DNA from: an uncultured Eubacteriales bacterium | GTDB taxonomy: Bacteria > Bacillota > Clostridia > Lachnospirales > Lachnospiraceae | Assembly: GCA_949289145.1 (NCBI GenBank) | Contig: CASEML010000121.1 | Coordinates: 1 to 42,014 of the forward strand | Direction: 5' to 3' | Length of the DNA: 42,014 nucleotides | Shown here: one piece after another, positions 4,804 through 41,851 of the stretch | How the letters are laid out: every line of letters starts with the position of its first letter | Position numbering within the stretch: the stretch's first letter is position 1 | Translations under genes and position numbers: made by a program | The notes under the pieces: model-generated | Databases searched by the model: none | Told to the model about the DNA's origin: nothing | The model's input: the letters and a program-made list of their open reading frames with translations, nothing else

Positions 4804-5588
4804 TAAAAATCAAAATTAGAAAGGATATCGGAAAAAAGCAGTATATACTTTTGGCAGTGGTTGCCTTCCTGGTGATTATCGGGGTTTGGGCCATTGCAAG
4901 CGGCACAGGCGCAGTGGACGAAATCTTTCTTCCCAAGCCTGCCAAGGTGGTTCAGTATTATATCAGTTCCATTCAAGATGGTTCCCTTTGGGAAAATACG
5001 AAAATAAGTATTTATAGAATTTTATTAGGCTTTATTCTCGCAGTGATTTTAGGAATTCCCGTTGGAATTTTAGTTGGAACCTTTAAAAAGGTAGAAGCAG
5101 TGATCCGTCCATTGTGTGAATTTATCCGTTACATGCCGGTACCCGCTTTTGTACCGTTGATCATGGTTTGGGTTGGAATTGGAGAAAATGCTAAGATTAC
5201 AGTTATTTTTATTGGTACCTTTTTTCAGCTGGTGCTTATGGTGGCAGATGATGCCATGTCTGTTCCCGATGACCTGATCAATGCAGGATATACCTTGGGA
5301 ACAACCACACCAATGACAATTTTCAAAATTATCATACCGGCCATGATGCCCCGCTTAATGGAAACACTACGAATGATGATTGGCTGGGCGTGGACCTATT
5401 TGGTAAGTGCTGAGTTAGTGGCTGCTAATACAGGGCTTGGTTACACGATTCTAAAGTCACAGAGATTTTTAAGTACAGACGCTATTTTTGGCGGAATTAT
5501 TTTAATTGGTCTTTTGGGATTGATCACAGACAGAATTTTCGTATTTCTGAATAGAAAGCTGTTCCCTTGGGCAGAAGGAGGTAGGTAA
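4800..5588 (+). CDS. ABC transporter permease (SsuC/TauC type)
   Basis: This 262-residue inner-membrane protein is the channel of the importer. Hydrophobic segments are clear at about residues 14-34, 70-95, 103-125, 130-150 and 225-247. The EAA-type cytoplasmic loop that contacts the ATPase is visible around residues 160-185 (AGYTLGTTTPMTIFKIIIPA). The start overlaps the stop of the binding-protein gene in an ATGA (4800-4803), so the two are translationally coupled. Family: BPD_transp_1, nitrate/sulfonate/taurine branch. Confidence 0.9.
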   Translation: MIKIKIRKDIGKKQYILLAVVAFLVIIGVWAIASGTGAVDEIFLPKPAKVVQYYISSIQDGSLWENTKISIYRILLGFILAVILGIPVGILVGTFKKVEAVIRPLCEFIRYMPVPAFVPLIMVWVGIGENAKITVIFIGTFFQLVLMVADDAMSVPDDLINAGYTLGTTTPMTIFKIIIPAMMPRLMETLRMMIGWAWTYLVSAELVAANTGLGYTILKSQRFLSTDAIFGGIILIGLLGLITDRIFVFLNRKLFPWAEGGR

Positions 5589-5589
5589 T

Positions 5590-6420
5590 ATGGGATTATT
5601 TCAAAAAAAGAAAAACATGCTTCCGGAACGGAACAGCCATATTGAAGCAAATCTGGCAAACAGTAAAATTTATGTGAAAGATGTGAAGAAAGTGTATCAC
5701 TCTGCAAAAGGTGATACGCTGGCTATGGATCATGTAAACCTTAACGTGTTGGAAAATGAATTTGTCTGCATTGTGGGACCTTCCGGCTGCGGTAAATCCA
5801 CGTTACTACGTATGGTGGCAGGTTTAGATGAAATTTCCGGCGGAGAAATTGTCATACAGGACAGACATATTATAGGACCGGGAGCCGATCGTGGAATGGT
5901 TTTTCAGGCATATACCCTATTTCCTTGGATGACTGTGGCGGAAAATATTAAATTTGGTTTAAAAATCCGAAAGATTCCGGCAAAGGAGCAGGAGGAAATT
6001 GTAGATAAGTATTTAAAAGTAATCAAACTAGAAAAATTTAGAAACAGCTATCCAAAAGAATTGTCCGGCGGTATGAAACAGAGAGTTGCCATTGCCAGAG
6101 CTCTGGCAAACAGTCCGGAAGTGCTTTTGATGGATGAACCTTTTAGTGCATTGGATCCTCAGACTAAAGCAGATATGCAGCTGCTGATGCGTCAAATCTG
6201 GCAAGTGGAAAAACCTACCATATTATTTGTTACCCATGATATTGAAGAAGCTGTATTTTTATCAAACAAGATTTATGTACTCACTTCAAGACCAGGGACC
6301 GTCAAGAAAGAAGTACGCGTATTGCTTCCATATGACAGGGATTTGTCTTTGAAAGATACAGAACAGTTCATCAAACTTCGTAAAGAAGTAAATGGATTGA
6401 TTGAGCATGAAAGTCTGTAG
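5590..6420 (+). CDS. ABC transporter ATP-binding protein (SsuB/TauB type)
   Basis: This 276-residue ATPase powers the importer. Walker A is GPSGCGKST at residues 63-71, the Q-loop lies in GMVFQAYTLFPW, the signature is LSGGMKQR, Walker B is VLLMDEPFSALD and the switch histidine is in FVTHDIEEA. An N-terminal extension of about 25 residues before the ABC core (MGLFQKKKNML) is longer than usual, with no recognised motif. It starts one base after the permease stop, with GGAGGT ahead. It is the last gene of the operon; the long inverted repeat at 6440-6513 follows. Confidence 0.93.
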   Translation: MGLFQKKKNMLPERNSHIEANLANSKIYVKDVKKVYHSAKGDTLAMDHVNLNVLENEFVCIVGPSGCGKSTLLRMVAGLDEISGGEIVIQDRHIIGPGADRGMVFQAYTLFPWMTVAENIKFGLKIRKIPAKEQEEIVDKYLKVIKLEKFRNSYPKELSGGMKQRVAIARALANSPEVLLMDEPFSALDPQTKADMQLLMRQIWQVEKPTILFVTHDIEEAVFLSNKIYVLTSRPGTVKKEVRVLLPYDRDLSLKDTEQFIKLRKEVNGLIEHESL

Positions 6421-9414: not shown

Positions 9415-10602
9415 ATGGGATTATGGAATCAGTTATTTGGAAAAAAAGAAGTAAAACAGGAAAATGCTGCTAAGGAGCCGGCAGAAGAAATAAAAAAAGA
9501 AGAAAAGGCTCAGCAGACAGCGCCAGCGGAGCTGCCAGAAATCTGTACCTTTATGGTGGAACAGATTTTTACTGTCAAGGACAGAGGATGTATTGTAGCC
9601 GGAATCATTCGAAATGGACAGATTGGATTAAATGACACAGTCTATGTATTAGGACGAGGGAAAAGTGTACAAGAATCCAGAGTACTTGGGCTGGAGAACC
9701 CTCAGATGGGTCAGATGGAAAAAGCAGCTCAGGGAACACCGGTGGGAATTTTATTAGAAAACATCACCAATGAAAACATTCATGCAGGAGATATTATCTC
9801 AAATGTAAAACCTAATACAGAAGATATCAACGAACCGGTTATGAATCCTCGTATTCAGGGATTGATGCGTCAGGCTGCAGGAAATCCTTCGGAAGAAATC
9901 ATGAATCTGTTATATGAAGAACTGGCAATGAATGCGAGATTGTTATCGGCAATGATGGTGACACATGAGCCGGTAAAAAAAGAAGATGGGACAGCAGTTT
10001 TTGAACAGGAAACAAAGATGCAGCTTCCGTTGCTTACATCACCGGACGGTTCTAAATATTATCCGGCATTTACCGACTGGCAGGAGCTTAACAAGTGGCA
10101 CGAAATATTAGAACCAAAGACATTACTTTTAACATTGGAAGATTATGTGGCGTTGGTATTAAAAAATAAAGATACCAAAGGTATTGTAATCAATCCCTTT
10201 GGTGAAAACATGATGGTGGATCGTCCTCTGTTGGAGCACTTAAAACGGAAAAAAGATATGCTCGTGCAGGGAAAGAGTATACAGCCCATAGATAAAAATG
10301 AAGAAATTTCTTTGGCTGAAGCAGCAGAATTTCCGGCAGGGATGGTAGAGAAAATAACAGAAGAACTGAAGGAAGAAGCTTGTGTGGAAAGAGCATGGCT
10401 TCGTTTGATGAAACGCAAGGAGGAAATCAGTTATCTATTTGTGGCAGATATTGCACTACCGGGAAATCAGGAGGCAGTGTTTGAGCGTGTAGCGAATGCA
10501 GTAAGACCTTTCTTAAAAGGAATGTATATTAATATGACCACATGTCAACAGGAATTTGGAAAAAATGCAGTTGAGGGAGTAGCCCCATTTTATAAAAAAT
10601 AA
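9415..10602 (+). CDS. Fusion of EF-Tu domain-2-like barrel and SseB-family domains
   Basis: This 395-residue soluble protein has an unusual domain order. Residues 1-40 are a charged Lys/Glu/Ala linker. Residues about 45-130 look like a translation-factor domain 2 beta-barrel (FMVEQIFTVKDRGCIVAGII, GQIGLNDTVYVLG, AAQGTPVGILLENITNENIH), as found after the GTPase domain of EF-Tu; there is no G domain. Residues about 160-285 resemble the SseB N-terminal domain (LPLLTSPDGSKYYPAFTDW, GIVINPFGENMMVDR). Residues about 300-395 resemble the SseB C-terminal domain (RAWLRLMKRK, FLKGMYINMTTCQQEF). SseB was named for a serine-sensitivity phenotype in E. coli, and its molecular role is unclear. The joint presence suggests a ribosome- or translation-linked accessory role, which is inference. 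Confidence 0.75.
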   Translation: MGLWNQLFGKKEVKQENAAKEPAEEIKKEEKAQQTAPAELPEICTFMVEQIFTVKDRGCIVAGIIRNGQIGLNDTVYVLGRGKSVQESRVLGLENPQMGQMEKAAQGTPVGILLENITNENIHAGDIISNVKPNTEDINEPVMNPRIQGLMRQAAGNPSEEIMNLLYEELAMNARLLSAMMVTHEPVKKEDGTAVFEQETKMQLPLLTSPDGSKYYPAFTDWQELNKWHEILEPKTLLLTLEDYVALVLKNKDTKGIVINPFGENMMVDRPLLEHLKRKKDMLVQGKSIQPIDKNEEISLAEAAEFPAGMVEKITEELKEEACVERAWLRLMKRKEEISYLFVADIALPGNQEAVFERVANAVRPFLKGMYINMTTCQQEFGKNAVEGVAPFYKK

Positions 10603-19713: not shown

Positions 19714-20973
19714 ATGGAAAAAAAGCCATTCGTAACCTTAGAACAGGTAAAAGAGATTACAAAGACATATCCTACTCCTTTTCATTTATATGATGAAAAA
19801 GGAATTCGAGAAAATGCAAGAAAATTAAAAAAGGCATTTGCATGGAACAAGGGATTTAAAGAATATTTTGCGGTGAAGGCAACACCAAACCCATATATCA
19901 TGAATATATTAAAAGAAGAAGGGGTTGGGGCAGACTGTTCCTCTCTGCCTGAACTGTATTTAAGCCACAAGGTGGGCTTAAAGGGAGATGAAATTATGTT
20001 TTCCTCTAATGTAACTCCAAGAGAGGATTTTGAATATGCGGCTAAAATCGGAGCCATCATTAACTTTGATGACCTGACACATGTAGATTTTTTTGGAGAA
20101 ATTGCTGATTTTCCAGAAACTATGTGCTGCCGCTATAATCCGGGCGGAGATTTTGTATTACAGAATCAGATTATGGACACTCCTCAGGATGCCAAGTATG
20201 GTATGACGAAGGAGCAGCTCAAGGAAGCATATAAGAAAATGAAAGCGAAAGGTGTAAAACATTTTGGTATTCATGCATTTCTTGCCAGCAACACAGTAAC
20301 AAATGAATATTATCCTAAGCTTGCAAAGATTTTATTTGAACTTGCCAAAGAATTACATGAAGAATTAGATGTGCATATTGCTTTTGTGAATCTTTCCGGA
20401 GGTGTTGGTATCCCTTACAGACCGGAGCAGGAACCGAACGATATCATTGCCATTGGTGAAGGAGTAAGAAAAGCATATGAAGAGGTGCTTGTACCGGCAG
20501 GCATGGATGATGTGGCAATTTTTACAGAATTGGGAAGATTTATGCTGGGGCCATACGGTTGTCTTGTGGCAAAGGTACTTCATGAAAAACATATTTATAA
20601 GGAATATATTGGATTGGATGCCTGTGCTGCCAACCTTATGCGTCCGGCAATGTATGGTGCTTATCATCATATTACCGTGCTTGGAAAAGAAAATGAGCCA
20701 TGTGACCACATATATGATGTGACCGGCGGACTCTGCGAAAATAATGATAAATTCGCTATTGACAGAGCGTTGCCAAAGATTGAGATCGGAGATTATCTGG
20801 TACTTCACGATACAGGAGCTCATGGATTTGCTATGGGATACAACTATAATGCAAAGCTTCGATCAGCAGAGCTTTTATTAAAGGAGAACGGAGAGGTACA
20901 GCAGATTCGTCGTGCTGAAACTATGGAGGATTATTTTGCAACCTTGGACTTAGACAAGTTTCCGTTAAGTTAA
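19714..20973 (+). CDS. lysA: Diaminopimelate decarboxylase-family enzyme
   Basis: This 419-residue PLP enzyme of the alanine racemase-like fold would convert meso-diaminopimelate to lysine. PLP binds Lys55 in YFAVKATPNP; the active-site cysteine lies in GGLCENNDKF, near the C-terminal barrel segment GDYLVLHDTGAHGFAMG. The family also holds carboxynorspermidine and ornithine decarboxylases; the sequence order and length fit the diaminopimelate branch best. It starts 21 bases after serS with AAGGAG, so both may share the leader's control. Its last 9 bases overlap the end of the convergent tetR gene. Confidence 0.88.
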   Translation: MEKKPFVTLEQVKEITKTYPTPFHLYDEKGIRENARKLKKAFAWNKGFKEYFAVKATPNPYIMNILKEEGVGADCSSLPELYLSHKVGLKGDEIMFSSNVTPREDFEYAAKIGAIINFDDLTHVDFFGEIADFPETMCCRYNPGGDFVLQNQIMDTPQDAKYGMTKEQLKEAYKKMKAKGVKHFGIHAFLASNTVTNEYYPKLAKILFELAKELHEELDVHIAFVNLSGGVGIPYRPEQEPNDIIAIGEGVRKAYEEVLVPAGMDDVAIFTELGRFMLGPYGCLVAKVLHEKHIYKEYIGLDACAANLMRPAMYGAYHHITVLGKENEPCDHIYDVTGGLCENNDKFAIDRALPKIEIGDYLVLHDTGAHGFAMGYNYNAKLRSAELLLKENGEVQQIRRAETMEDYFATLDLDKFPLS

Positions 20974-21588
20974 ATGAGAAGTTATTAAAAAGTTTAAAGA
21001 ACCTGCCGGATTCTCGGTACCTTTTTCCAGCAGGGAAATCAATCCTGCAATGGTTTCTTCAATTTGGTTTGGAGTAGATGGGAGAATTGTATTATCAAAC
21101 TTTACTGCAAGTACGATTAATACAATTTCTGCCAGCGCTGCGGGATGGTCAAAGTGAATTTCTCCCTGTTCAATTCCCTGGGTTATGATTGCAGTTAATT
21201 CAGGTTTTAATTCAGAAATTAAATGATTTAAATATCGCTGATGTAAGAAAGATTCTTCCTGAGCATTGCTTAGGGCAGAATCTTTCTTTTTGGTGAGAAA
21301 TTCTAAAGAAGAATTTCTGCATGCCTGAAAAATCATTGCCATACGTGTAAAGGGGGAAATGTTAGTCTGTGTTGCTAAAGTTTTGGCAGTTTCGATGGGC
21401 TTTTTATAACTCCGTTCGATTAATGCTTCTAAAATAGCATTTTTAGACGGAAAATAATAATAAATACTTCCCTTGCCAATACCGGCAGTCTGCGCAATTT
21501 CGCTGACCGAAATTGTCTCTATATTCTTAGTTTCTAATAATTTCAAAAGTGCATCCAAAATTTCGTTGTATTTGATAGAATTTTGCAT
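20965..21588 (-). CDS. TetR/AcrR-family repressor of the SCP2-hydrolase-condensation operon
   Basis: This 207-residue protein has a TetR N-terminal helix-turn-helix at about residues 8-52 (ILDALLKLLETKNIETISVS, EIAQTAGIGKGSIYYYFPSK). The C-terminal ligand-binding domain is not diagnostic. It is divergent from the operon at 21815 and two GACC-N3-GGTC palindromes lie in between, so it most probably represses that operon and is released by a hydrophobic ligand or product; this is inference from layout. The 3' end overlaps the convergent lysA gene by 9 bases. Confidence 0.88.
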   Translation of the reverse strand: MQNSIKYNEILDALLKLLETKNIETISVSEIAQTAGIGKGSIYYYFPSKNAILEALIERSYKKPIETAKTLATQTNISPFTRMAMIFQACRNSSLEFLTKKKDSALSNAQEESFLHQRYLNHLISELKPELTAIITQGIEQGEIHFDHPAALAEIVLIVLAVKFDNTILPSTPNQIEETIAGLISLLEKGTENPAGSLNFLITSHLT

Positions 21589-21634
21589 GATTACCGCCTC
21601 TCAAGAATTTTCCTGTCTTATTATTTGTGTGTAC

Positions 21635-21664
21635 ATTATATCATAGTAAAAACAGCATAGGCAA
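21635..21664 (-). promoter_or_regulatory. Promoter of the tetR gene
   Basis: On the minus strand a consensus TATAAT (+ coordinates 21640-21635) is preceded by TGA (extended -10), with TTGCCT (21664-21659) 18 bases upstream. It reads toward the tetR start at 21588. Confidence 0.6.
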
Positions 21665-21720
21665 TTAGAAAGTTTTATAAATAGGTCAGGGTTTCTAGGA
21701 AAATTTAGGAAAACATCATA

Positions 21721-21736
21721 TTGACCGCAGGTCGAA
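21721..21736. promoter_or_regulatory. TetR operator copy 1, over a candidate -35 box
   Basis: TTGACCGCAGGTCGAA contains GACC-GCA-GGTC (21723-21733). TTGACC (21721-21726) could be the -35 of the operon promoter, with a poor -10 (TAAGGT, 21744-21749) 17 bases on, so a bound repressor would block polymerase. Confidence 0.55.
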
Positions 21737-21762
21737 TTGGTGTTAAGGTAAATGAGAAGAGT

Positions 21763-21781
21763 AATCGACCAACGGTCGATT
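21763..21781. promoter_or_regulatory. TetR operator copy 2
   Basis: AATCGACC-AAC-GGTCGATT is a perfect palindrome with 8-bp arms and a 3-bp centre. Its core repeats the GACC-N3-GGTC of copy 1, 44 bp away. Confidence 0.7.
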
Positions 21782-21814
21782 CATGATTATCATTATATAA
21801 ATGGAGGGAATAGT

Positions 21815-22165
21815 ATGACATATGCTGAAATTTTTTCAGAAATAAAAGGGCAGTTTATGGAGGCTGATATCAGTGATGTTACAGAACATCTGGCATTTCA
21901 GTTTAATATTATCGGGGAGGGTTCCGGTATTTTTTATGTAGAAGCGAAGGAAGGAAAACTGTATGTGGAGCCCTATGAGTATTTTGACAGAGATGCCATG
22001 TTTACATGCAAAGCAGAAACTTTAATGAAAATTGCAGCGGGAGAATTGGATCCAGTACTGGCAGTTACTTTGCAGAAGTTGAAGGTGGAAGGAAATATTG
22101 ACAAAGCTCTAAAGCTAAAAGAACTGATTGACAAAAAAGGTAAAAGGAAAAAGGGAGAGAAGTAG
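21815..22165 (+). CDS. SCP2-like (sterol carrier) lipid-binding domain protein
   Basis: This 116-residue protein is a stand-alone SCP2-like domain: LAFQFNIIGEGSGIFYVEAK, then LYVEPYEYFDRDAMFTCKAE, AETLMKIAAGELDPVLAVTL and KLKVEGNIDKALKL. The last two blocks are the most typical of the family. SCP2 folds make a hydrophobic tunnel that holds acyl chains or other lipids. I start at ATG 21815 with GGAGGG upstream; the in-frame reading back to 21752 would run through operator copy 2. As first gene of the operon, it may deliver or store the acyl substrate or product. Confidence 0.82.
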   Translation: MTYAEIFSEIKGQFMEADISDVTEHLAFQFNIIGEGSGIFYVEAKEGKLYVEPYEYFDRDAMFTCKAETLMKIAAGELDPVLAVTLQKLKVEGNIDKALKLKELIDKKGKRKKGEK

Positions 22166-22168
22166 CGT

Positions 22169-23116
22169 ATGAGTAAATTAGTTGGCGGGATAGTGGCACT
22201 GGCAGGAGCTATTGTAGTGGCAGAAGCCGGCATTTCAGCCTATTTTTATCGCAGAACCATGAAAAGGAATAAAGCAAAAGTGGAACGAACCATGAAAATG
22301 GCAGGTACTGACTGGGACCAGTATATGCCATTAATTCAAGAGAGGAAAGCATATTTGTTGTCTAAACCCCACGAAGATGTTTTTGTTTATTCCCATGATG
22401 GTCTGAAGCTGCACGGCACTTACTTTCCGAATGGTGAAAGTAAGAAGTTAGTAATCTGTTTCCATGGTTATACCAGTGAAGGAATGAAAGATTATAACGG
22501 GTTGTCAGATTATTATTTAAAGCGTGGGTTTGGCATGCTGATGATCGATGAAAGAACCCACGGACAAAGCGAAGGAGATTACATAGGGTTTGGCTGTTTA
22601 GACAGAATGGACGCACTGCGATGGATGGAATGGGCAATTCGTAAATGTGGAGAAGACGTACAGATTATTCTTCACGGAATCTCTATGGGAGGAGCTACCG
22701 TGTTGATGGCCAGTGGTTTAAAACTGCCCAAGCAAGTAAAGGGGATCATTTCCGACTGTGGTTTCACCTCCCCGAAACATGTGTTTACCCATGTGCTTCA
22801 TTCCATGTACCACATACCGGCATTTCCGATCATACAGATAGCAGATTGTGTAAATAAAAGCAGAGCCGGCTACGGATTGGACGAATGTAATGCAGCCAGA
22901 GAAGTAAGAAAAGCAGAAGTGCCGATTTTAATGATTCATGGGGATGCCGACACCTTTGTACCAAGCAGTATGTGTCAGGAGATTTATGAAAACTGTGCCT
23001 CAGATAAGAGAATGCTGATCATAAAAGGCGCAGCCCATGCGGAGAGCTATTATAAAGATATGCCTGCTTATGAGAAGGCAATGGATGACTTGATGGAAAG
23101 GGTTATAGAAAAATGA
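22169..23116 (+). CDS. Alpha/beta hydrolase with N-terminal membrane anchor
   Basis: This 315-residue protein begins with a hydrophobic segment (residues about 4-26, VGGIVALAGAIVVAEAG) that probably anchors it to the membrane. An alpha/beta hydrolase domain follows: oxyanion region CFHGYTSEG, DERTHGQSEG, nucleophile elbow HGISMGGA (Ser at about residue 172), the acid Asp in IHGDADTFVP and His in GAAHAESY. All three catalytic residues are present. The start is 3 bases after the SCP2 gene and the stop overlaps the next start in ATGA, so it is translationally coupled. A thioesterase, lipase or acyl-transfer editing role in the operon is plausible but unproven. Confidence 0.85.
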   Translation: MSKLVGGIVALAGAIVVAEAGISAYFYRRTMKRNKAKVERTMKMAGTDWDQYMPLIQERKAYLLSKPHEDVFVYSHDGLKLHGTYFPNGESKKLVICFHGYTSEGMKDYNGLSDYYLKRGFGMLMIDERTHGQSEGDYIGFGCLDRMDALRWMEWAIRKCGEDVQIILHGISMGGATVLMASGLKLPKQVKGIISDCGFTSPKHVFTHVLHSMYHIPAFPIIQIADCVNKSRAGYGLDECNAAREVRKAEVPILMIHGDADTFVPSSMCQEIYENCASDKRMLIIKGAAHAESYYKDMPAYEKAMDDLMERVIEK

Positions 23117-24516
23117 TGAGAACAAGAAAAGGATACAAGGTATATCCACTTACCAATGCGCAGAAATTTCATTTATACTATTTGGCATTCTGCCCAAACA
23201 AGGCGGTAGTGAATATTGGAACCAGCCTTACCATTGAAACAGAAATAGACTGGAATGTTTTAAAACAGTCTATTTACAAGGCATACGAACGCTGTGAATC
23301 CATGCGGCTTCGTTTTGCTCAGGATAAACAAGGAAATTACTACCAGTATGTAGCAGACAAAGAAGAAAGAGATATTGAATTTGTGAATTTTTCAGGATGT
23401 TCCATGGAGGAAGCGGAAGCGCAGATGCGAAAATGGACTCAGGTACCATTTGAAGGTCAGGATTCACCTATGAATAGAATTGTAATGATCAAAACTCCCG
23501 ATGGTTATAATGGGATTTATCTCTTGGTGAACCATTTGACTATGGATGCCCAGTCCATCATCTGTTTTATGAAGGATATCATTGAAATTTACTGTAATGC
23601 AAAATATGAAGGAGTTCCATACCCAAAGGAAATGGCTTCTTACATAAAGCAGCTGGAAAAAGATTTGGCTTACGAAGCTGGCTGTAAGGCGAAAGACAGA
23701 GATGAAGCGTTCTTCCATCAGTTGATTGAAAGCTCAGAGCCGATTTACAATGGAATCGACGGAACAAAGAAGTTAGAGGAGGCAAGAAAAAGAAGTGGAA
23801 ATCCTAAAGCAAGAGCTGCTATGAATGTTTCTGATTCTGTAGAATCTGCGCTGGATATTTTTCATTTAGAAGAAGAACCTACCAGACGGCTCATGGATTT
23901 TTGCCAGGAATATCATGTTTCCTTGGTGTGTCTTTTACTAATGGGGCTGCGCACCTATTTTCAGAAGATGAATGGAAATGATGATGTATCTATTAATACA
24001 GCCATTGCAAGAAGAGCAACTTTACAGGAAAAGAAAAGCGGCGGCACAAGAATCCATTCATTTCCGTTTCGCACTATCATACCAGAAGATAAGACGTTCT
24101 TAGAAGGAATCTATGAAATTCGTGATAAACAAAATGAATTATTCCGCTATGCCAATTACAATCCGGTTTCCTATTTTGCATATCGAAGCCAGATTTACAA
24201 TACAGAAAAAGGATGTACCTATGAACCAATGTCTTTAACCTATCAGCCAATGACATTGCAGGAAAAGGGGTTGGACCAGCTTGGCAGTATTCGTTATAAA
24301 ACAAAATGGTATCCAAATGGTGCGACTACTCAGGCAATGTATTTAACCGTAATGCATCGGCCGGAAGATAACGGTCTGGATTTTAATTTTGAACACCAAG
24401 TAAAGGCAGTTTCCAGACAGCAGCTGGAATATTTGTATTATTATCTCTGCAGGATCATGTTTAAGGGTATAGAAAATCCCGGACTGTTAATTGGAGATAT
24501 TATGAAACTTGTATAG
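23113..24516 (+). CDS. Stand-alone condensation-domain acyltransferase
   Basis: This 467-residue protein has the two-lobed fold of NRPS condensation domains and related acyltransferases (PapA, wax ester synthase). Near the N-terminus is YPLTNAQKFHLYYLAF, and the active-site motif is NHLTMDA at residues 140-146, against the usual HHxxxDG: catalytic His141 and Asp145 are kept, the first His is Asn and the final Gly is Ala. Later come NDDVSINTAIARR and SFPFRTIIPEDKTF, matching the lobe-2 region. It would join an acyl group, probably carried by the next gene's protein, to an amine or alcohol. The acceptor is unknown. Confidence 0.8.
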   Translation: MMRTRKGYKVYPLTNAQKFHLYYLAFCPNKAVVNIGTSLTIETEIDWNVLKQSIYKAYERCESMRLRFAQDKQGNYYQYVADKEERDIEFVNFSGCSMEEAEAQMRKWTQVPFEGQDSPMNRIVMIKTPDGYNGIYLLVNHLTMDAQSIICFMKDIIEIYCNAKYEGVPYPKEMASYIKQLEKDLAYEAGCKAKDRDEAFFHQLIESSEPIYNGIDGTKKLEEARKRSGNPKARAAMNVSDSVESALDIFHLEEEPTRRLMDFCQEYHVSLVCLLLMGLRTYFQKMNGNDDVSINTAIARRATLQEKKSGGTRIHSFPFRTIIPEDKTFLEGIYEIRDKQNELFRYANYNPVSYFAYRSQIYNTEKGCTYEPMSLTYQPMTLQEKGLDQLGSIRYKTKWYPNGATTQAMYLTVMHRPEDNGLDFNFEHQVKAVSRQQLEYLYYYLCRIMFKGIENPGLLIGDIMKLV

Positions 24517-24532
24517 AAATGAGGGAAAGCAG

Positions 24533-24760
24533 ATGTTTGAAAAATTAGTAGAAATAATTTGTAACTATGTGGAAGTAGAGCCTGAACATGTTTTATGGGA
24601 ATCAAGATTTATGGAGGATTTGGGATTTTCCTCTTTTGATTTTATGAGCATGCTTGGAGAACTGGAAGAAGAATTGGAAGTGGAGATTGACCAGCATCAG
24701 GTCGCCGATATACGAACGGTAGGAGAAGCAGTGGAATATTTAGAAAAGCTGTCTGCGTAA
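24533..24760 (+). CDS. Acyl carrier protein
   Basis: This 75-residue acidic helical protein carries the phosphopantetheine site in MEDLGFSSFDFMSML. Ser34 takes the attachment position; the usual DSL reads SSF, so the residue before the serine is Ser instead of Asp. Start ATG 24533 has GAGGGA 7 bases upstream; a longer in-frame start at 24509 overlaps the condensation gene. As part of the operon it should carry the acyl or aminoacyl group between the ligase and the condensation protein, after modification by a phosphopantetheinyl transferase encoded elsewhere. Confidence 0.87.
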   Translation: MFEKLVEIICNYVEVEPEHVLWESRFMEDLGFSSFDFMSMLGELEEELEVEIDQHQVADIRTVGEAVEYLEKLSA

Positions 24761-24779
24761 GTGGGAAAGGGAGAATGAT

Positions 24780-26288
24780 ATGGTTTACAGTACAATTCGT
24801 GATATTTTAGTGACAGCAGAAGAAAAATTCGGTGCAGAAGATGCGATTCGGTATAAAAAAAATAAAAATGAAATAGAGGCGAAAACCTATACGCAGCTTA
24901 AAAAAGACAGTGAAAGCTTCTCCTGTGTATTGCAGGCTTTGGAACAGCAGGGAAATCATATTGCCCTTATAGGACCTACCAGTTATCCGTGGATTGTAGC
25001 TTATTTTGGTATTGTTAACAGTGCAAGCGTAGCGGTTCCATTAGATGTATCCTTGCCGGCAGGAGAATTGTGTGAGTTGCTGGAACGTGCAGATGTAACG
25101 GTGCTTGTAGTGGACGAAAGCAGGAAAGATGTGATAGAAACTGCAAAAAAATATTGTCCAAAACTAAAGTATCTTATCTCCATGCAGAAACAGGAAAGCA
25201 GTGAGGAAAGTCTTTCCTTTTGGCAGCTTGTAAAGGAATATGGAGGAAGTTTTGCATACCAGCCTGAGCCGGATAAGCTTTGCACCATCATGTTTACCTC
25301 CGGCACCACAGGAAAAAGCAAAGGTGTTATGCTTTCCCAGCGTAATCTAGCAGAAAACGCCACCTGTCTGGACATGAAGATACCGGAAAGGACAGTATTG
25401 TTATCTGTGCTCCCAGTGCATCATGCCTATTGTCTTAGCATGGATATTTTAAAGGCATTATCCCTGGGAAGTATTATCTGTATTAATGATTCACTTATGC
25501 GTGTGGCAAAGAATATTAAGCTATTCCGCCCCAATATGATGCTGATGGTGCCTCTGATGATTGAAACGCTTGCAAAAAAACTGGAGGATTCAGCAAAGGT
25601 GCCGGCAATTGTTGTGAAAATGAAGGTGTTTGGAAAGCAGTTTCATACTATCTGCAGCGGAGGAGCCTATCTGAATCCTGCCTATATAGATTTGTTTGAA
25701 AAATACGGAATCACCATTCAGCAAGGCTATGGAATGACGGAATGTTCACCGGTAATCAGCACCAACCTAAGCTGGAACATTAAGAAAGAATCCGTAGGTC
25801 AGTTACTTCCTAACTGTGAGGCAAAAGTAGTAGACAATGAAATTTGGGTTCGGGGCAGCAGTGTTATGATGGGATATTATAATATGCCGGATAAAACAGA
25901 AGAAACCTTAAAAGATGGCTGGCTTCTTACCGGGGACCTGGGATATGTGGATGAGGAAAGATTTGTGCTCTTAACAGGCAGAAAGAAAAATCTAATTATT
26001 ACAAAAAATGGAGAAAATGTTTCACCGGAAGAACTGGAAAATAAAATCGGCAGTCATCGTTTGGTACAGGAAATTCTGGTTCGCGAAAAAGAGGGTGTGA
26101 TCGAAGCTGAAATTTTTCCTGACATAGAATATGCTGAAAAAAAGAAGATTACGGATATTACGTCAGCATTACAGCAGCTCATTGATGAATATAATCAAAG
26201 TGCACCATCCTATAAAAAAATCTATAGTATGAAGGTCCGGGAAACAGAATTTGAAAAAACTCCTTCGAAAAAAATAAAAAGATATTAG
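24780..26288 (+). CDS. AMP-forming acyl/aminoacyl ligase (ANL superfamily)
   Basis: This 502-residue enzyme activates a carboxylate as an acyl-adenylate. Core motifs are complete: A3 as IMFTSGTTGKSKGVMLS (about residues 170-186), A5 as GYGMTECSP, A7 as LTGDLGYVDEE, A8 as GRKKNLIITKNGENVSPEEL, and the A10 lysine in TPSKKIKRY at the very C-terminus. The order resembles long-chain acyl-CoA and acyl-ACP ligases more than amino-acid adenylation domains, though the binding pocket was not analysed. It probably loads the carrier protein encoded 20 bases upstream. No thioesterase or reductase domain is attached. Confidence 0.86.
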   Translation: MVYSTIRDILVTAEEKFGAEDAIRYKKNKNEIEAKTYTQLKKDSESFSCVLQALEQQGNHIALIGPTSYPWIVAYFGIVNSASVAVPLDVSLPAGELCELLERADVTVLVVDESRKDVIETAKKYCPKLKYLISMQKQESSEESLSFWQLVKEYGGSFAYQPEPDKLCTIMFTSGTTGKSKGVMLSQRNLAENATCLDMKIPERTVLLSVLPVHHAYCLSMDILKALSLGSIICINDSLMRVAKNIKLFRPNMMLMVPLMIETLAKKLEDSAKVPAIVVKMKVFGKQFHTICSGGAYLNPAYIDLFEKYGITIQQGYGMTECSPVISTNLSWNIKKESVGQLLPNCEAKVVDNEIWVRGSSVMMGYYNMPDKTEETLKDGWLLTGDLGYVDEERFVLLTGRKKNLIITKNGENVSPEELENKIGSHRLVQEILVREKEGVIEAEIFPDIEYAEKKKITDITSALQQLIDEYNQSAPSYKKIYSMKVRETEFEKTPSKKIKRY

Positions 26289-35813: not shown

Positions 35814-36995
35814 ATGGCAAAAAAAGTAGTTTTAGCAGGCGCATGTCGTACAGCAATCGGTACTATGGGTGGCTCTTTAAGCACAACACCGGCAGCAGAT
35901 TTAGGAGCAATCGTAATTAAAGAAGCTTTAAACAGAGCAGGGGTAGCTCCAGAAGCAGTAGATCAGGTTTATATGGGTTGTGTAATTCAGGCCGGTCAGG
36001 GACAGAACGTTGCTCGTCAGGCAACTATTAAGGCTGGTTTACCAATTGAAGTACCAGCAGTTACTATCAATGTGGTATGTGGTTCTGGTTTGAACTGTGT
36101 CAACATGGCTGCACAGATGATCATGGCCGGAGAAGCAGATATCGTAGTAGCAGGTGGTATGGAAAACATGTCTATGGCTCCATATGCTTTAGATAAAGCT
36201 CGTTTTGGTTACAGAATGGGTAACGCAACAATGAAGGATACTATGATTAACGATGCTCTCTGGGATGCATTCAATGATTACCATATGATCAAGACAGCGG
36301 ACAACATCTGTGAAGAATGGGGAATTACCAGAGAAGAATTAGATGAGTTTGCATTAAAGAGCCAGCAGAAAGCAGAAGCTGCTCAGAAGAACGGTGCATT
36401 TGACGATGAAATTGTTCCGGTCATGGTGAAGAAGAAAAAAGAAACCATAGAATTCAAAGTAGATGAAGGTCCTCGTCCAGGATCTACAATGGAAGGCCTC
36501 GCAAAACTTCGCGCCATCAATCCAAACGGATTTGTTACAGCAGGTAATGCATCCGGTATCAATGATGGTGCTGCAGCAATCGTTGTTATGAGCGAAGAGA
36601 AAGCAAAAGAATTAGGCGTTAAGCCAATGGCTACTTGGGTTGCAGGTGCACTTGCAGGATGCAGACCGGAAGTAATGGGTATCGGACCTGTTTACTCTAC
36701 AAAGAAAGTATTAGATAAGACAGGAATGAAGATTGAAGACTTTGATATCATTGAAGCAAACGAAGCTTTCGCAGCTCAGTCCATCGCTGTAGGCAGAGAT
36801 TTAGGAATTGATGTGGATAAGCAGTTAAATCCAAACGGTGGAGCCATCGCGTTAGGACATCCGGTTGGAGCTTCAGGCTGCCGTATCTTAGTTACATTAC
36901 TTCATGAAATGCAGAAAGCAGACGCTAAGAAAGGTCTTGCAACATTATGTATCGGTGGCGGAATGGGATGTTCTACAATCGTAGAGCGTGACTAA
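35814..36995 (+). CDS. thlA: Acetyl-CoA acetyltransferase (thiolase)
   Basis: This 393-residue enzyme condenses two acetyl-CoA to acetoacetyl-CoA, the first step of butyrate formation. Nucleophile Cys89 lies in [10 protein letters not shown]; His349 lies in [10 protein letters not shown] and the second cysteine, Cys379, in TLCIGGGMG. Length and motifs match biosynthetic thiolases. It is the first gene of the operon, with GGAGG 7 bases before ATG 35814. Codon use (many GGT, GCT, CGT and TTA codons) fits high expression. Confidence 0.96.
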
Positions 36996-37031
36996 TTGCT
37001 GATAACATAGAATTTTGTGGAGGAAAAGAAG

Positions 37032-37823
37032 ATGGAATTTATCACATATGAAGCAGAAGGAGCGGTTGGTGTTATCACCATCAACCGTCCGAAAGCTTTA
37101 AATGCATTAAACAGTCAGGTTTTGGAAGAAATTGACAAAACATTAGACGGTGTAGATTTAGAAACCGTAAGATGTCTTATTCTAACAGGCGCAGGTGAAA
37201 AATCCTTTGTGGCTGGTGCAGATATCGGAGAAATGAGTACACTTACCAAAGCAGAAGGAGAAGCTTTTGGTAAGAAGGGAAATGATGTATTCCGTAAGTT
37301 AGAAACCTTTCCGATTCCGGTAATTGCAGCCATCAACGGATTTGCGTTAGGGGGCGGATGTGAAATCTCCATGAGCTGTGACATCCGTATCTGTTCTGAA
37401 AACGCAGTATTTGGACAGCCGGAAGTAGGTTTGGGAATCACACCCGGATTTGGCGGAACACAGCGCCTTGCTCGTATTGTAGGTGTGGGTAAAGCAAAAG
37501 AAATGATTTACGGTGCAAGAAACATCAAAGCCGATGAAGCATACAGAATCGGTTTGGTAAATAATGTATATCCTTTAGAAGAGTTAATGCCAGCGGCTAA
37601 GAAGCTTGCTTCTACGATTGCAGCAAATGCTCCGATTGCAGTAAGAGCATGTAAAAAAGCCATCAATGAAGGATTAGATGCAACTATGGACGATGCTATC
37701 GTAATCGAAGAAAAATTATTCGGAAGCTGCTTCGAGACAGAAGATCAGAAGGCTGGAATGGGTAACTTCCTTGAAAAAGACAAAGAAAAGAAGTTGAAAG
37801 TAGTTCCTTTCCAGAACAGATAA
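37032..37823 (+). CDS. crt: 3-hydroxybutyryl-CoA dehydratase (crotonase)
   Basis: This 263-residue enoyl-CoA hydratase removes water from 3-hydroxybutyryl-CoA to give crotonyl-CoA, the third step of the pathway. The CoA oxyanion pocket is seen in KSFVAGADIGEM and NGFALGGGCEISMSCDIRI; catalytic glutamates lie in GGGCE and in FGQPEVGLG. The start is ATG 37032 with GGAGG upstream; the alternative TTG at 37017 is too close to the ribosome binding site. It lies 36 bases after thlA. Confidence 0.95.
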   Translation: MEFITYEAEGAVGVITINRPKALNALNSQVLEEIDKTLDGVDLETVRCLILTGAGEKSFVAGADIGEMSTLTKAEGEAFGKKGNDVFRKLETFPIPVIAAINGFALGGGCEISMSCDIRICSENAVFGQPEVGLGITPGFGGTQRLARIVGVGKAKEMIYGARNIKADEAYRIGLVNNVYPLEELMPAAKKLASTIAANAPIAVRACKKAINEGLDATMDDAIVIEEKLFGSCFETEDQKAGMGNFLEKDKEKKLKVVPFQNR

Positions 37824-37895
37824 TATGTAATGACAATGAGGACTGCGGACAGTCTGTACTAGAATATAGAAGATAAAATTTTAGGAGGATTAGAA

Positions 37896-38735
37896 ATGAA
37901 AGTAGGAGTTATTGGTGCCGGAACAATGGGTGCAGGTATTGCACAGGCATTTGCCATGACAGATGGTTATGAAGTATGTCTTTGTGACATTAAAACAGAA
38001 TTCGCTGAAGGCGGAAAAGCTAAGATTTTAAAGAACTTAAACTTCTTAGTAGGAAAAGAAAAAATCACACAGGAAAAAGCGGATGAAATCGCCGGAAAAA
38101 TTGTTACAGGTTTAAAAGATATCTGTACAGACTGTGATTTAGTAATTGAAGTTTGTCCTGAAAAAATGTCTATTAAGAAAGATACTTTTGCAGAGTTAAT
38201 GAAAATCTGTAAGAAAGATTGTATCTTCGTTTCTAACACATCTTCTCTGTCTATCACAGAAATGGGACAGGGATTAGACAGACCATTGATTGGTATGCAT
38301 TTCTTTAATCCGGCTGACAGAATGAAGTTAGTTGAAGTTATTGCCGGTGAAAATACACCTGCAGAATTAGTAGAAAAGATTAAGACAATCTCTACAGAAA
38401 TCGGTAAAACACCTGTAGAAGTAAAAGAAGCTCCGGGATTTGTTGTTAACAAGATATTAATTCCAATGATCAATGAAGCGATTGGAATCTATGCAGAAGG
38501 CATTGCTAGTGTAGAAGATATCGATACAGCTATGAAATTAGGCGCATCTCATCCAATGGGACCTTTAGCATTAGGCGATTTAGTAGGTCTTGATATCGTA
38601 CTTGCAATCATGGAAGTATTACAGGCTGAGACAGGTGATCCTAAGTATCGTCCAGCGCCACTTCTTAAGAAGATGGTTCGTGCCGGAAAACTGGGTAAGA
38701 AGACTGGAATCGGATTCTACGATTATTCAAAATAA
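37896..38735 (+). CDS. hbd: 3-hydroxybutyryl-CoA dehydrogenase
   Basis: This 279-residue enzyme reduces acetoacetyl-CoA to 3-hydroxybutyryl-CoA with NAD(P)H. The N-terminal Rossmann motif is [15 protein letters not shown]; the catalytic His lies in [11 protein letters not shown], with Glu in VEVIAGE, and the substrate loop NTSSLSITE is present. The C-terminal domain is typical: [15 protein letters not shown] and [16 protein letters not shown]. It follows crt by 72 bases, behind TAGGAGG. It completes the trio thl-crt-hbd. Confidence 0.96.
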
Positions 38736-38754
38736 GATTATTTCAAGTAAGTAT

Positions 38755-38781
38755 ATGTGCCAGGGGCAAACCCTGGTACAT
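38755..38781 (+). other. Hairpin between hbd and bcd
   Basis: ATGTGCCAGGG (38755-38765) pairs over 11 bp with CCCTGGTACAT (38771-38781), one G-U, 5-nt loop. No T-tract follows, so it is more likely an mRNA processing or stability element than a terminator. Confidence 0.7.
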
Positions 38782-38826
38782 TCTTAATAAACATCAATAC
38801 AAAATTAAAATGGAGGAATTAATAAG

Positions 38827-39984
38827 ATGGATTTCGCATTAAGTAAGAAACACGAAATGGCAAGAAGTCTTTTTAAAGAATTTGCCGAAAACGAAGTAAA
38901 ACCTCTTGCTCAGGAAGTAGACGAAACAGAACAGTTCCCAGAAGGAACTGTTGCTAAAATGGCAAAGGCTGGTTTTCTTGGTATTCCAATTCCGAAGGAA
39001 TATGGCGGACAGGGCTGTGACCCATTAACATATGCAATGTGTGTAGAAGAACTTTCAAAAGTTTGTGGTACCACAGGCGTTATCGTATCTGCTCATACAT
39101 CACTCTGCTGTGATCCAATCCAGACATACGGTACAGAAGAACAGAAACAGAAATACTTAGTTCCGCTGGCTAAGGGTGAAAAATTAGGAGCTTTCGGTTT
39201 AACAGAGCCAGGTGCTGGTACAGATGCTCAGGGACAGCAGACAAAGGCTGTATTTGATGAAGCTACAAATGAATGGGTATTAAACGGTTCTAAGTGCTTT
39301 ATCACAAACGGTAAGTATGCTGATATCTACATTGTGATTGCTGTAACAGGCAAAGTGGAAAAACGCGGTAAAATGATGAAAGAAATTTCAGCATTTATTG
39401 TAGAAAAAGGAACACCAGGCTTCACATTCGGAACAAAAGAAAAGAAAATGGGTATCCGTGGCTCAGCTACATATGAATTAATTTTCACAGATTGTAGAAT
39501 TCCAAAGGAAAACTTATTAGGACAGAAGGGTAAAGGCTTCAATATCGCTATGCACACATTAGATGGCGGACGTATCGGTATTGCTGCTCAGGCTCTTGGT
39601 TTAGCTGCCGGTGCATTAGAAACAACCATTGAATATGTAAAGGAAAGAAAACAGTTCGGAAGATCTATTGCACAGTTCCAGAATACTCAGTTCCAGTTAG
39701 CAGATATGGCTACAAAGGTAGAAGCTGCCCGTTTATTAGTATATAAGGCTGCTATGGCAAAGGCTACTCAGAAAAGCTACAGCTTTGAAGCTGCTCAGGC
39801 GAAATTATATGCTGCAGAAGTTGCAATGGAAGTTACAACTAAGGCAGTTCAGTTACATGGTGGTTATGGTTACATTAGAGAATACGACGTTGAACGTATG
39901 ATGCGTGATGCTAAGATCACAGAAATCTACGAAGGAACTTCAGAAGTTCAGCGTATGGTTATTTCTGCTAATTTATTGAAATAA
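38827..39984 (+). CDS. bcd: Butyryl-CoA dehydrogenase
   Basis: This 385-residue flavoprotein of the acyl-CoA dehydrogenase family reduces crotonyl-CoA to butyryl-CoA. FAD and substrate contacts appear in FGLTEPGAGTDAQGQQT and GSKCFITNG; the catalytic base Glu369 lies in EIYEGTSEVQR. With the Etf encoded directly downstream it can couple NADH oxidation to reduction of ferredoxin by electron bifurcation, as known for clostridial Bcd-Etf. It starts 91 bases after hbd, with a hairpin in between and GGAGG upstream. Confidence 0.96.
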   Translation: MDFALSKKHEMARSLFKEFAENEVKPLAQEVDETEQFPEGTVAKMAKAGFLGIPIPKEYGGQGCDPLTYAMCVEELSKVCGTTGVIVSAHTSLCCDPIQTYGTEEQKQKYLVPLAKGEKLGAFGLTEPGAGTDAQGQQTKAVFDEATNEWVLNGSKCFITNGKYADIYIVIAVTGKVEKRGKMMKEISAFIVEKGTPGFTFGTKEKKMGIRGSATYELIFTDCRIPKENLLGQKGKGFNIAMHTLDGGRIGIAAQALGLAAGALETTIEYVKERKQFGRSIAQFQNTQFQLADMATKVEAARLLVYKAAMAKATQKSYSFEAAQAKLYAAEVAMEVTTKAVQLHGGYGYIREYDVERMMRDAKITEIYEGTSEVQRMVISANLLK

Positions 39985-39997
39985 GGAGGTACTTATT

Positions 39998-40780
39998 GTG
40001 AAAATCGTAGTATGTGTAAAACAGGTACCTGATACAAAGGGTGGAGTTAAATTCAACCCAGACGGTACATTAGATAGAGGTGCAATGCTTACCATCATGA
40101 ACCCGGATGATAAAGCAGGTTTAGAAGCAGCACTTAGATTAAAGGATGAATATGGCGCAGAAGTTACTGTTGTAACAATGGGTCTTCCAAAAGCGGAAGA
40201 AGTTCTTCGCGAAGCCATTGCTATGGGTGCTGATAAAGGTATCTTAGTTACAGACAGAGTTTTAGGTGGAGCTGATACATGGGCGACCTCCACAACACTG
40301 GCCGGTGCCATCAGAAACTTAGAATATGATTTGATCATCACAGGACGTCAGGCTATCGATGGTGATACAGCTCAGGTTGGACCACAGATTTCTGAACATT
40401 TAGATATTCCTGTAATTTCCTATGCACAGGCTATCAAAATAGAAGGAGATTCTGTTATCGTAGAACGTCAGTACGAAGACAGACATCATGTAGTAAAGGC
40501 AAAAATGCCTTGCTTAATTACAGCTCTTGCTGAATTAAATGAGCCACGTTATATGACACCAGGCGGAATCTTTGATGCATATGATGCAGAAATCACTGTA
40601 TGGGGCAGAGCAAACCTTGTAGATGTTGATGATGCAAACCTTGGTTTAAAAGGTTCACCTACAAAGATTGCGAAAGCATCTGATAAAGTGAGAAAGGGTG
40701 CCGGTGAAAAAGTTACTCTTGATCCTACAGAAGCAGTGGAATACCTTGTTGGTAAATTTAAAGAGAAGCACGTAATTTAA
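39998..40780 (+). CDS. etfB: Electron-transfer flavoprotein, beta subunit
   Basis: This 260-residue protein pairs with EtfA. The start is GTG 39998 (MKIVVCVKQVPDTKGGVKF) with AAGGAGGT 8 bases upstream. The family block LRLKDEYGAEVTVVTMGLPK, then DLIITGRQAIDGDTAQVGPQ and LNEPRYMTPGGIFDAY, is typical of bifurcating EtfB, which binds an extra FAD near the N-terminal region. It is 13 bases from bcd, so coupled transcription and matched levels are expected. Confidence 0.95.
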   Translation: MKIVVCVKQVPDTKGGVKFNPDGTLDRGAMLTIMNPDDKAGLEAALRLKDEYGAEVTVVTMGLPKAEEVLREAIAMGADKGILVTDRVLGGADTWATSTTLAGAIRNLEYDLIITGRQAIDGDTAQVGPQISEHLDIPVISYAQAIKIEGDSVIVERQYEDRHHVVKAKMPCLITALAELNEPRYMTPGGIFDAYDAEITVWGRANLVDVDDANLGLKGSPTKIAKASDKVRKGAGEKVTLDPTEAVEYLVGKFKEKHVI

Positions 40781-40807
40781 TTATTATAAGGAAAAGTGGT
40801 GAATAAG

Positions 40808-41851
40808 ATGAATTTAGAAGAATATAAAGGAGTTTTTGTCTTTGCACAGCAGGTAGATAATAAAATCAGCGGTGTGGCTTTAGAATTACTTGGTAAGGCA
40901 AAGGATCTTGCAAAAGACTTAAATACAGATGTTACAGCAGTTTTAGTTGGTTCTGGAATCAAAGGACTTGCAGACGAATTAGCTGAATACGGTGCTGATA
41001 AAGTTATTGTTGTAGATGATCCTGAATTAAAGGATTACAGAACAGAACCATATACACATGCATTAGCAGAAGTAATCAACAAATACAAACCGGAAATCGT
41101 ATTAGTTGGTGCTACAGCAATCGGTCGTGATCTTGGTCCTCGTGTATCTGCAAGAGTTGCAACAGGTCTTACAGCAGACTGTACCGTACTTGAAATTGGT
41201 GATTTCCCAATCAATCCAATTCCAGGTCAGGAACAGAAACACAATCAGTTATTAATGACTCGTCCTGCATTCGGTGGTAATACAATTGCTACCATCGCTT
41301 GTCCGGATCACCGTCCTCAGATGGCTACTGTTCGTGCAGGTGTTATGCAGAAAATTGAACCAATCAAAGGTGCAAAAGCCGTTGTAGAAGAATTTAACCC
41401 AGGATTTACACCAAACAACAAATATGTTGAAATTATGGAAATTGTGAAATCTGTAACGGATTCCGTAGACATTATGGAAGCGAAAGTATTAGTATCCGGC
41501 GGACGTGGAGTTGGAAGCAAGGAAAACTTCAAAATCTTAGAGGACTTAGCAGAAGTACTTGGCGGAGAAGTATGCTGCTCTCGTGCCGTAACAGATGCAG
41601 GCTGGTTACCGGTTGATCGTCAGGTAGGTCAGACAGGTAAAACAGTTCGTCCAAGTCTGTACTTTGCAATCGGTATTTCAGGAGCTATCCAGCACGTTGC
41701 AGGTATGGAAGAATCTGACATTATCGTAGCAATCAATAAAGACGAAGATGCTCCAATCTTCGATGTGGCTGACTACGGTTTAGTTGGAGATTTAAATAAA
41801 ATTGTGCCGGCTTTAACAGAAGCTTTAAAGGCTGAAATGGCTGCAAAATAA
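40808..41851 (+). CDS. etfA: Electron-transfer flavoprotein, alpha subunit
   Basis: This 347-residue protein holds the second FAD of the Bcd-Etf complex in its C-terminal domain, seen in [53 protein letters not shown] and [21 protein letters not shown] prefer ATG 40808 ([17 protein letters not shown]), which fits the usual N-terminus; AAGGA lies 15 bases upstream, which is far. A GTG at 40796 is only 3 bases from that site, so the start is uncertain by 4 codons. Last gene of the operon. Confidence 0.95.

Follow-up and report, generated by a model that had tools for sequence, protein, structure and literature searches.

Which product is made at a six-gene locus that places an SCP2-type lipid-binding protein and an alpha/beta hydrolase in front of a stand-alone condensation enzyme (C), an acyl carrier protein (ACP; T) and an AMP-forming acyl ligase (A)? 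The locus lies in a 42,014-nucleotide stretch of DNA (hereafter the window), which is contig CASEML010000121.1 (C121) of the 2.93-Mb, 88% complete draft genome GCA_949289145.1 of an uncultured Lachnospiraceae bacterium. Open reading frames (ORFs) of the window and Pfam matches, which exceeded their curated cut-offs for all six products, gave a TetR-family regulator gene on the minus strand facing the genes for SCP2, hydrolase, C, T and A, with intergenic gaps from SCP2 to A of 3, -4, 16 and 19 bases (Table 1). The five-gene set, the opposing regulator and all four gaps agree exactly with a preliminary description of the locus. We consider it, with a probability of about 0.8, a locally controlled, TetR-repressed fatty-acid-amide (FAA) operon; this is the most likely reading because C matches the FAA enzyme OaaC and keeps an insertion of OaaC that is absent from remote controls.

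When compared with solved structures, the window C matched PDB 12kh at E = 1.8e-114 over residues 9-465 (about 40% identity), the next solved C domain following at 1.4e-10. That entry is OaaC, the stand-alone enzyme from Coprococcus eutactus that carries out the condensation in oleoyl aminovaleric acid biosynthesis and, together with OaaA and OaaACP, produces oleoyl-, palmitoleoyl- and lauroyl-amides of aminovalerate or γ-aminobutyric acid (GABA) (PMC13142362). The available text of that preprint describes FAA pathways in which separate ligase, carrier and condensation proteins join a fatty acid to a small free amine, reports their reconstitution in vitro, and credits their discovery to Chang et al. 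2021 (PMC13142362). Two further papers cite Chang et al. 2021 for the formation of fatty acid amides or lauroyl tryptamine by Clostridia, and the genes are not described in their available text (PMC9886687, PMC10900623). The homology of C to OaaC supports the earlier proposal, drawn from the split A, T and C proteins, that the product is an N-acyl amine or acylated lipid and not a peptide. The accompanying statement that no such pathway had been described fails for the core, as a separate ligase, ACP and condensation enzyme leading to FAAs in gut bacteria have been published (PMC13142362).

OaaC carries an insertion of 17 residues with a helix, Gln214-His224 (PMC13142362). In our comparison the insertion measured 30 residues in the window C and 31 in OaaC; three remote C domains, used as controls, each had 11 residues there. 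The AlphaFold model of the window C (predicted local distance difference test, pLDDT, 89.5) has a C-domain fold, with a helix at 219-228 within the insertion region. The controls (G143, G310 and G360; 22-27% identity) were taken as nonribosomal peptide synthetase (NRPS) C domains from their open frames, two of 1428 and 2540 aa and the third of 506 aa, without a family search, and were excluded from neighbourhood counts. Twenty-one positions were invariant across 38 rows of the subclade defined below (SCP2-type) and 13 OaaC-type rows, and in the three controls each of these positions is either gapped or occupied by a different residue.

Table 1. Genes and putative control elements of the operon, in window coordinates
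Feature	Position	Strand	Match or remark
TetR-family regulator, 207 aa	20965..21588	-	TetR_N 3.9e-14; divergent from operon
Putative operator O1, TTGACCGCAGGTCGA; first six bases = -35 hexamer	21721..21735		core GACCN3GGTC
Putative -10 hexamer TAAGGT, 17 bp past -35	21744..21749	+	TANNNT conserved in relatives
Putative operator O2, TCGACCAACGGTCGA, 44 bp from O1	21765..21779		just downstream of expected transcription start
SCP2-type lipid-binding protein, 116 aa	21815..22165	+	PF02036 8.9e-12
Alpha/beta hydrolase with N-terminal hydrophobic helix, 315 aa	22169..23116	+	PF12146 (Hydrolase_4) 8.9e-19
Stand-alone condensation enzyme, fatty-acid-amide type, 467 aa; motif NHLTMDAQ	23113..24516	+	PF00668 2.6e-37; PDB 12kh
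Acyl carrier protein, 75 aa; expected phosphopantetheine site Ser34	24533..24760	+	PF00550 (PP-binding) 2.7e-11
AMP-forming acyl ligase, 502 aa; expected catalytic Lys498 (PSKKIKRY)	24780..26288	+	PF00501 1.6e-64

The place of the enzyme among its relatives was examined in a sample of 397 genomes of the family, of which 58 had a C match at 1e-20 or better (59 matches). Of these matches, 39 (33 genera, one partial) showed 56-100% identity and 20 showed 22-39%, the remote controls being three of these 20. The window C groups with the first set, the SCP2-type subclade, which is 34-42% identical to OaaC. It falls outside a 13-row group (support 100/97) made up of OaaC and 12 second-set rows, which are 46-56% identical to OaaC, so that the family sample holds 39 matches of the SCP2-type subclade versus 12 of OaaC type. 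The tree covered 57 rows with a single remote root row, the G310 domain, which was the sole control to pass the length filter. L072, being truncated, appears neither in the tree nor in the motif table, and the tree took in no starter C domains and not the published FAA set. The window C most likely represents an FAA subclade distinct from OaaC. In the order sample, 33 of 392 genomes matched at 1e-30, all from the same family except three in a second family (46-51% identity), and in the phylum sample 4 of 398 genomes matched, namely the genome itself and three remote ones at 24-25%. A scan of named genomes gave at least 573 confirmed relatives, the best 80 of which include Claveliimonas bilis, Merdimonas faecis and Sellimonas caecigallum; neither Eubacterium rectale nor C. 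eutactus is among the titles of those 80. The sequences thus point to a widespread subclade that is most likely of FAA type. Within the genus, four of five genomes matched, own included. The C of one of them (L184, genome G1107) is just 58% identical to that of the window, versus 82 and 85% for the other two same-genus copies; given this distribution the operon may move or be lost, and transfer or replacement at L184 is possible.

The C motif differs between the two groups. In the window (NHLTMDA) the second His and the Asp are kept and Ala comes next, which fits the Ala class of the preprint, where the residue after the motif Asp is Ser in 42%, Ala in 36% and Gly in 17% of 127 FAA C domains and the OaaC-like motif is given as (D/H)HxxxDS (PMC13142362). 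Ser follows the motif Asp in 12 of 13 OaaC-group rows (DHRxxDS), versus Ala in the SCP2-type subclade, where the motif ends in DAQ in 105 of 105 distinct rows in which it was found (2 of 107 rows were unmatched). Its first residue is D in 89 of the 105, N in 8, H in 6 and S in 2, making the Asn of the window a minority form. The 36% share of Ala suggests that the SCP2-type subclade already lies within the 127-domain set of the preprint, as far as its available text goes (PMC13142362), and the subclade may also already be among the clusters of Chang et al. 2021.

Several observations weigh against this assignment. Identity between the window C and OaaC is only about 40%; support for the SCP2-type clade is modest (80/65), with one distant root row and long-branch warnings; and two of the three remote controls likewise read NH...DA, so the motif alone is weak and indecisive as FAA evidence and was dropped as a stand-alone test. 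Three more distant relatives (L085, L087 and L088), whose C enzymes are 32-33% identical to the window C and 43-45% to OaaC, have no carrier or ligase of this kind in the fetched stretch, and related C enzymes can therefore act in other settings; these three are possibly C enzymes of another setting. In addition, SCP2 is absent from 11 of 88 subclade loci and is thus not essential everywhere, and the nearest solved relatives of the ligase are coenzyme A (CoA) ligases.

Conservation of the gene set was assessed on 119 close-clade loci, which reduced to 107 distinct loci, 88 of them with enough flank and 19 short of it; as the 107 include the best 80 named-genome relatives, the sample leans to close relatives. 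The exact order TetR(-), SCP2, hydrolase, C, T, A was found in 67 of the 88, and the six-gene order recurred in 30 of the 38 close-clade loci fetched from other genomes, so the set is conserved beyond this strain and does not reflect chance. The C-T-A order was present in 87 of 88 loci and SCP2 in 77, and 75 had a TetR relative (above 150 bits) pointing away from the operon; among core genes, the hydrolase stood directly 5' of C in 88 of 88, and in the window the two genes overlap by 4 bases. A tblastn search of the 20 loci lacking an SCP2 label (four of OaaC type, some flank-short) found no SCP2 either, although a strongly diverged one could escape the models used. The 12 scored subclade rows without SCP2 correspond to four changes on a quick tree (5 of 120 rows unscored). 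Across 136 loci no neighbour family beyond the six genes was shared at a fixed place, and an amine-making gene or transporter linked in this way was rejected as a component. The commonest extra ORF clusters were, by position, antisense to or other frames of core genes, and ABC- and MATE-type transporters, recognized by eye without a family search, were seen in 27 and 19 of the 136 loci, respectively, at distances that varied.

Control of the operon can be read from the stretch between TetR and the first gene. The core GACCN3GGTC was present in 93 of 100 such stretches versus 0.8 expected from base shuffles (83 of 89 distinct stretches). Among other spacers from 0 to 9 none recurred, with one stretch having spacer 7. 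Where two copies were present, the first began TTGACC in 45 of 45 stretches and the second followed 43-45 bp on in 43 of 45; of 48 one-copy stretches, 29 had TTGACC and 19 did not. Among 44 distinct stretches with one perfect copy, 41 had a partner with one mismatch at a distance of 40-49 bp to either side, a count made without a chance control. In 65 of 66 distinct stretches TANNNT followed TTGACC at 17 bp (53) or 18 bp (12), other offsets from 8 to 44 giving at most 7. From this conserved spacing, O1 overlaps the -35 element and O2 lies just past the expected start, about four helical turns apart. The -10 element of the window is itself poor, and a consensus promoter scan omits TAAGGT and lists TCGACC (21765) with TATCAT instead. 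With no mismatch, the operator TYGACCNNNGGTCRA occurs at just two sites in the genome, both at this promoter, and with one mismatch it gave 6 hits per strand, fewer than the 20 of a reversed-pattern control. Because the exact site is confined to these two places in the 88% complete genome, the regulator looks dedicated to the operon. By homology with other TetR proteins it would bind both operators, and we infer that it clamps the promoter through O1 and O2. Family models were unspecific for this TetR, with FadR among the weak hits and BetI and YvdT scoring equal or better.

The start of the SCP2 gene was placed at the ATG after AATGGAGGGAATAGT, the mechanical ORF start (21752) lying further upstream. 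The protein scores 45.7 bits in Pfam against a cut-off of 21.3, and its AlphaFold model (pLDDT 87.9) matches SCP2 structures, including 1pz4, a mosquito SCP2 with a bound C16 fatty acid. At least 97% of 123 hydrolase rows keep S172, D261, H290 and H99-G100, residues that are presumably catalytic as in the family generally. Its nearest solved structure is an esterase, 5g59 (1.5e-13), with monoglyceride lipases further down at about 1e-5. The preliminary description had called this hydrolase membrane-anchored, which holds for the window protein (best 19-residue hydropathy 2.2) but less so for the family, where the anchor is weaker, as just 32 of 121 rows reach 1.6 (99 of 121 reach 1.3).

For the carrier, the start was set at the ATG after GAGGGAAAGCAG (mechanical start 24509), and S34 is conserved in at least 97% of 131 rows. 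The ligase keeps TSGTTGxxKG in at least 97% of 130 rows and Lys498 in 120 of 121 ungapped rows; these elements, like Ser34 of the carrier, are presumably catalytic as in their families. By sequence, the ligase may load CoA instead of ACP, given its nearest structures. As to the amine, no match to PF00282, which we take to cover aromatic amino acid and glutamate decarboxylases, was found in the 88% complete genome, 8 of 14 control genomes giving a match, and two OKR_DC-type decarboxylases scored above cut-off. A home-made amine, if there is one, would therefore be likelier of polyamine type, with neighbours or diet as the probable source of any aromatic amines or GABA.

A working scheme for the FAA operon can be drawn from these parts. 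The ligase, with ATP, would activate a fatty acid and load it onto the free carrier protein, and C would then acylate a small amine that diffuses freely, releasing an N-acyl amide; both the acyl-ACP route and the amide product are proposed by homology to the OaaC pathway. Our guess for the accessory proteins is that in the cytosol SCP2 most likely holds either free fatty acid or the product, which is hydrophobic, and that the hydrolase, which is probably tethered to the membrane, most likely acts either on glycerides, releasing fatty acids, or on the product, cleaving it. The TetR protein would probably sit on the two operators bracketing the promoter and be released by a fatty acyl compound or the product, the ligand, like the identity of acid and amine, again being a guess.

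Other assignments of the same genes deserve weighing against the FAA scheme. The hydrolase and SCP2 could be a lipid-scavenging unit of their own that shares no more than its transcript with the FAA genes, which we think unlikely: the four changes in SCP2 presence with the rest of the operon kept would suit such a unit, as would the general esterase type of the hydrolase, whereas the fixed position of the hydrolase directly before C and its overlap with C in the window speak against it, as does the related hydrolase (27-29% identity) found near C-T-A in 5 of 12 OaaC-type loci, once on the other strand. More doubtful still is a role in acylating a membrane lipid or some other component of the cell, or in forming an ester instead of an amide, with the FAA likeness due to ancestry and SCP2 and hydrolase serving lipid remodelling. 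An SCP2 protein beside an esterase/lipase-type hydrolase does suggest lipid handling, the subclade is distinct from OaaC, and none of the neighbour families present in at least 6 loci, the range surveyed, read as amine-making; yet the 21 residues invariant in both clades and in none of the controls, together with the kept insertion, tie C to an enzyme that works on small free amines (PMC13142362).

That the operon makes a short lipopeptide or acyl amino acid, with C joining the acyl group to an amino acid in place of a decarboxylated amine, appears very improbable. The preprint tree places FAA C domains nearest starter condensation domains (PMC13142362), and the fold matches listed for the window C are NRPS-type C domains, 12kh not being among the 50 listed (library to 8 April 2026). 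The conserved set nevertheless has one A, one T and no acceptor carrier, and FAA C domains are said in the available text to exclude amino acids, even if aminovalerate and GABA count as amino acids in a wider sense (PMC13142362). An ordinary NRPS peptide line was rejected, as the set holds one A, one T and one C, with no second module. In the same genome (G000), two weak ligase matches on contig C33 (15940-23137; L002 and L004), one inside a 1864-aa frame, suggest a separate NRPS-like cluster.

FAAs of gut Clostridia act on human G-protein-coupled receptors (PMC13142362); the present gene set is common to many gut bacteria, and it very probably joins a fatty acid to a small amine into a lipid of this receptor-active kind. 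Most subclade loci carry two lipid genes for which no FAA role was found in the literature searched, and the conserved operator gives a handle on the inducer and hence probably on the acid or product. More tentatively, the subclade may be a second widespread Lachnospiraceae FAA subfamily with its own product class, in which SCP2 carries the acid or amide, the tethered hydrolase supplies or destroys it and a TetR reads the lipid through a two-operator promoter. If this were true, such a TetR would close synthesis and breakdown into a self-limiting lipid-signal circuit.

Elsewhere in the window, a LysA-like decarboxylase at 19714-20973 scored 284.2 bits, just below the diaminopimelate decarboxylase cut-off of 297.9. 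No second PF02784 gene was found in the genome, and this one stands beside the operon in the window alone among the 136 loci (some flank-short), so it is more likely a housekeeping enzyme, and a link to the operon was rejected. A thiolase (35814-36995) and an electron transfer flavoprotein alpha subunit (40796-41851) lie on one strand with ORFs between, and from these two searched genes the region 35814-41851 looks like a butyryl-CoA (butyrate) operon. An ABC importer row at 3769-6420 comprises an NMT1/THI5-like binding protein, a permease and an ATPase, and a 395-aa protein at 9415-10602 combines both SseB domains (N- and C-terminal) with a weak match to EF-Tu domain 2 that stays below threshold. 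No RNA elements or tRNAs were found in the window at gathering scores.

Among known systems, the match to a characterized cluster extends to the C-T-A core only, a pathway already described; the SCP2-type version with its two extra lipid genes was not found described. The literature search, which listed PMC13142362 and two papers with seemingly unrelated titles (PMC9582728, PMC8945038), returned no characterized FAA cluster with an SCP2 gene, and the available main text of the preprint has no mention of SCP, sterol, hydrolase or TetR (PMC13142362). The OaaC-type loci, relatives compared here in place of the OaaC cluster itself, share the C-T-A order in 12 of 12. In them SCP2 was found in 0 of 12 (one with only 407 bases upstream of C), and a weakly similar TetR follows A on the other strand in 7 of 12, whereas TetR is divergent upstream here. 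Compared with OaaA, OaaACP and OaaC, the window likewise has a free-standing ligase, carrier and condensation enzyme, the last homologous to OaaC over its full length and with the same insertion, differing in its motif (NHLTMDAQ versus DHRLMDSC). The FAA clusters of gut Clostridia from Chang et al. 2021, as the available preprint text describes them, resemble it in their separate ligase, ACP and C and in an acid-amine product (PMC13142362). Finally, the SCP2 protein shares fold and family with other SCP2-domain proteins (SCP2, UbiJ/UbiT and the alkylsulfatase C-terminal domain) and differs from them in being a stand-alone protein of 116 aa within a ligase-carrier-condensation operon.

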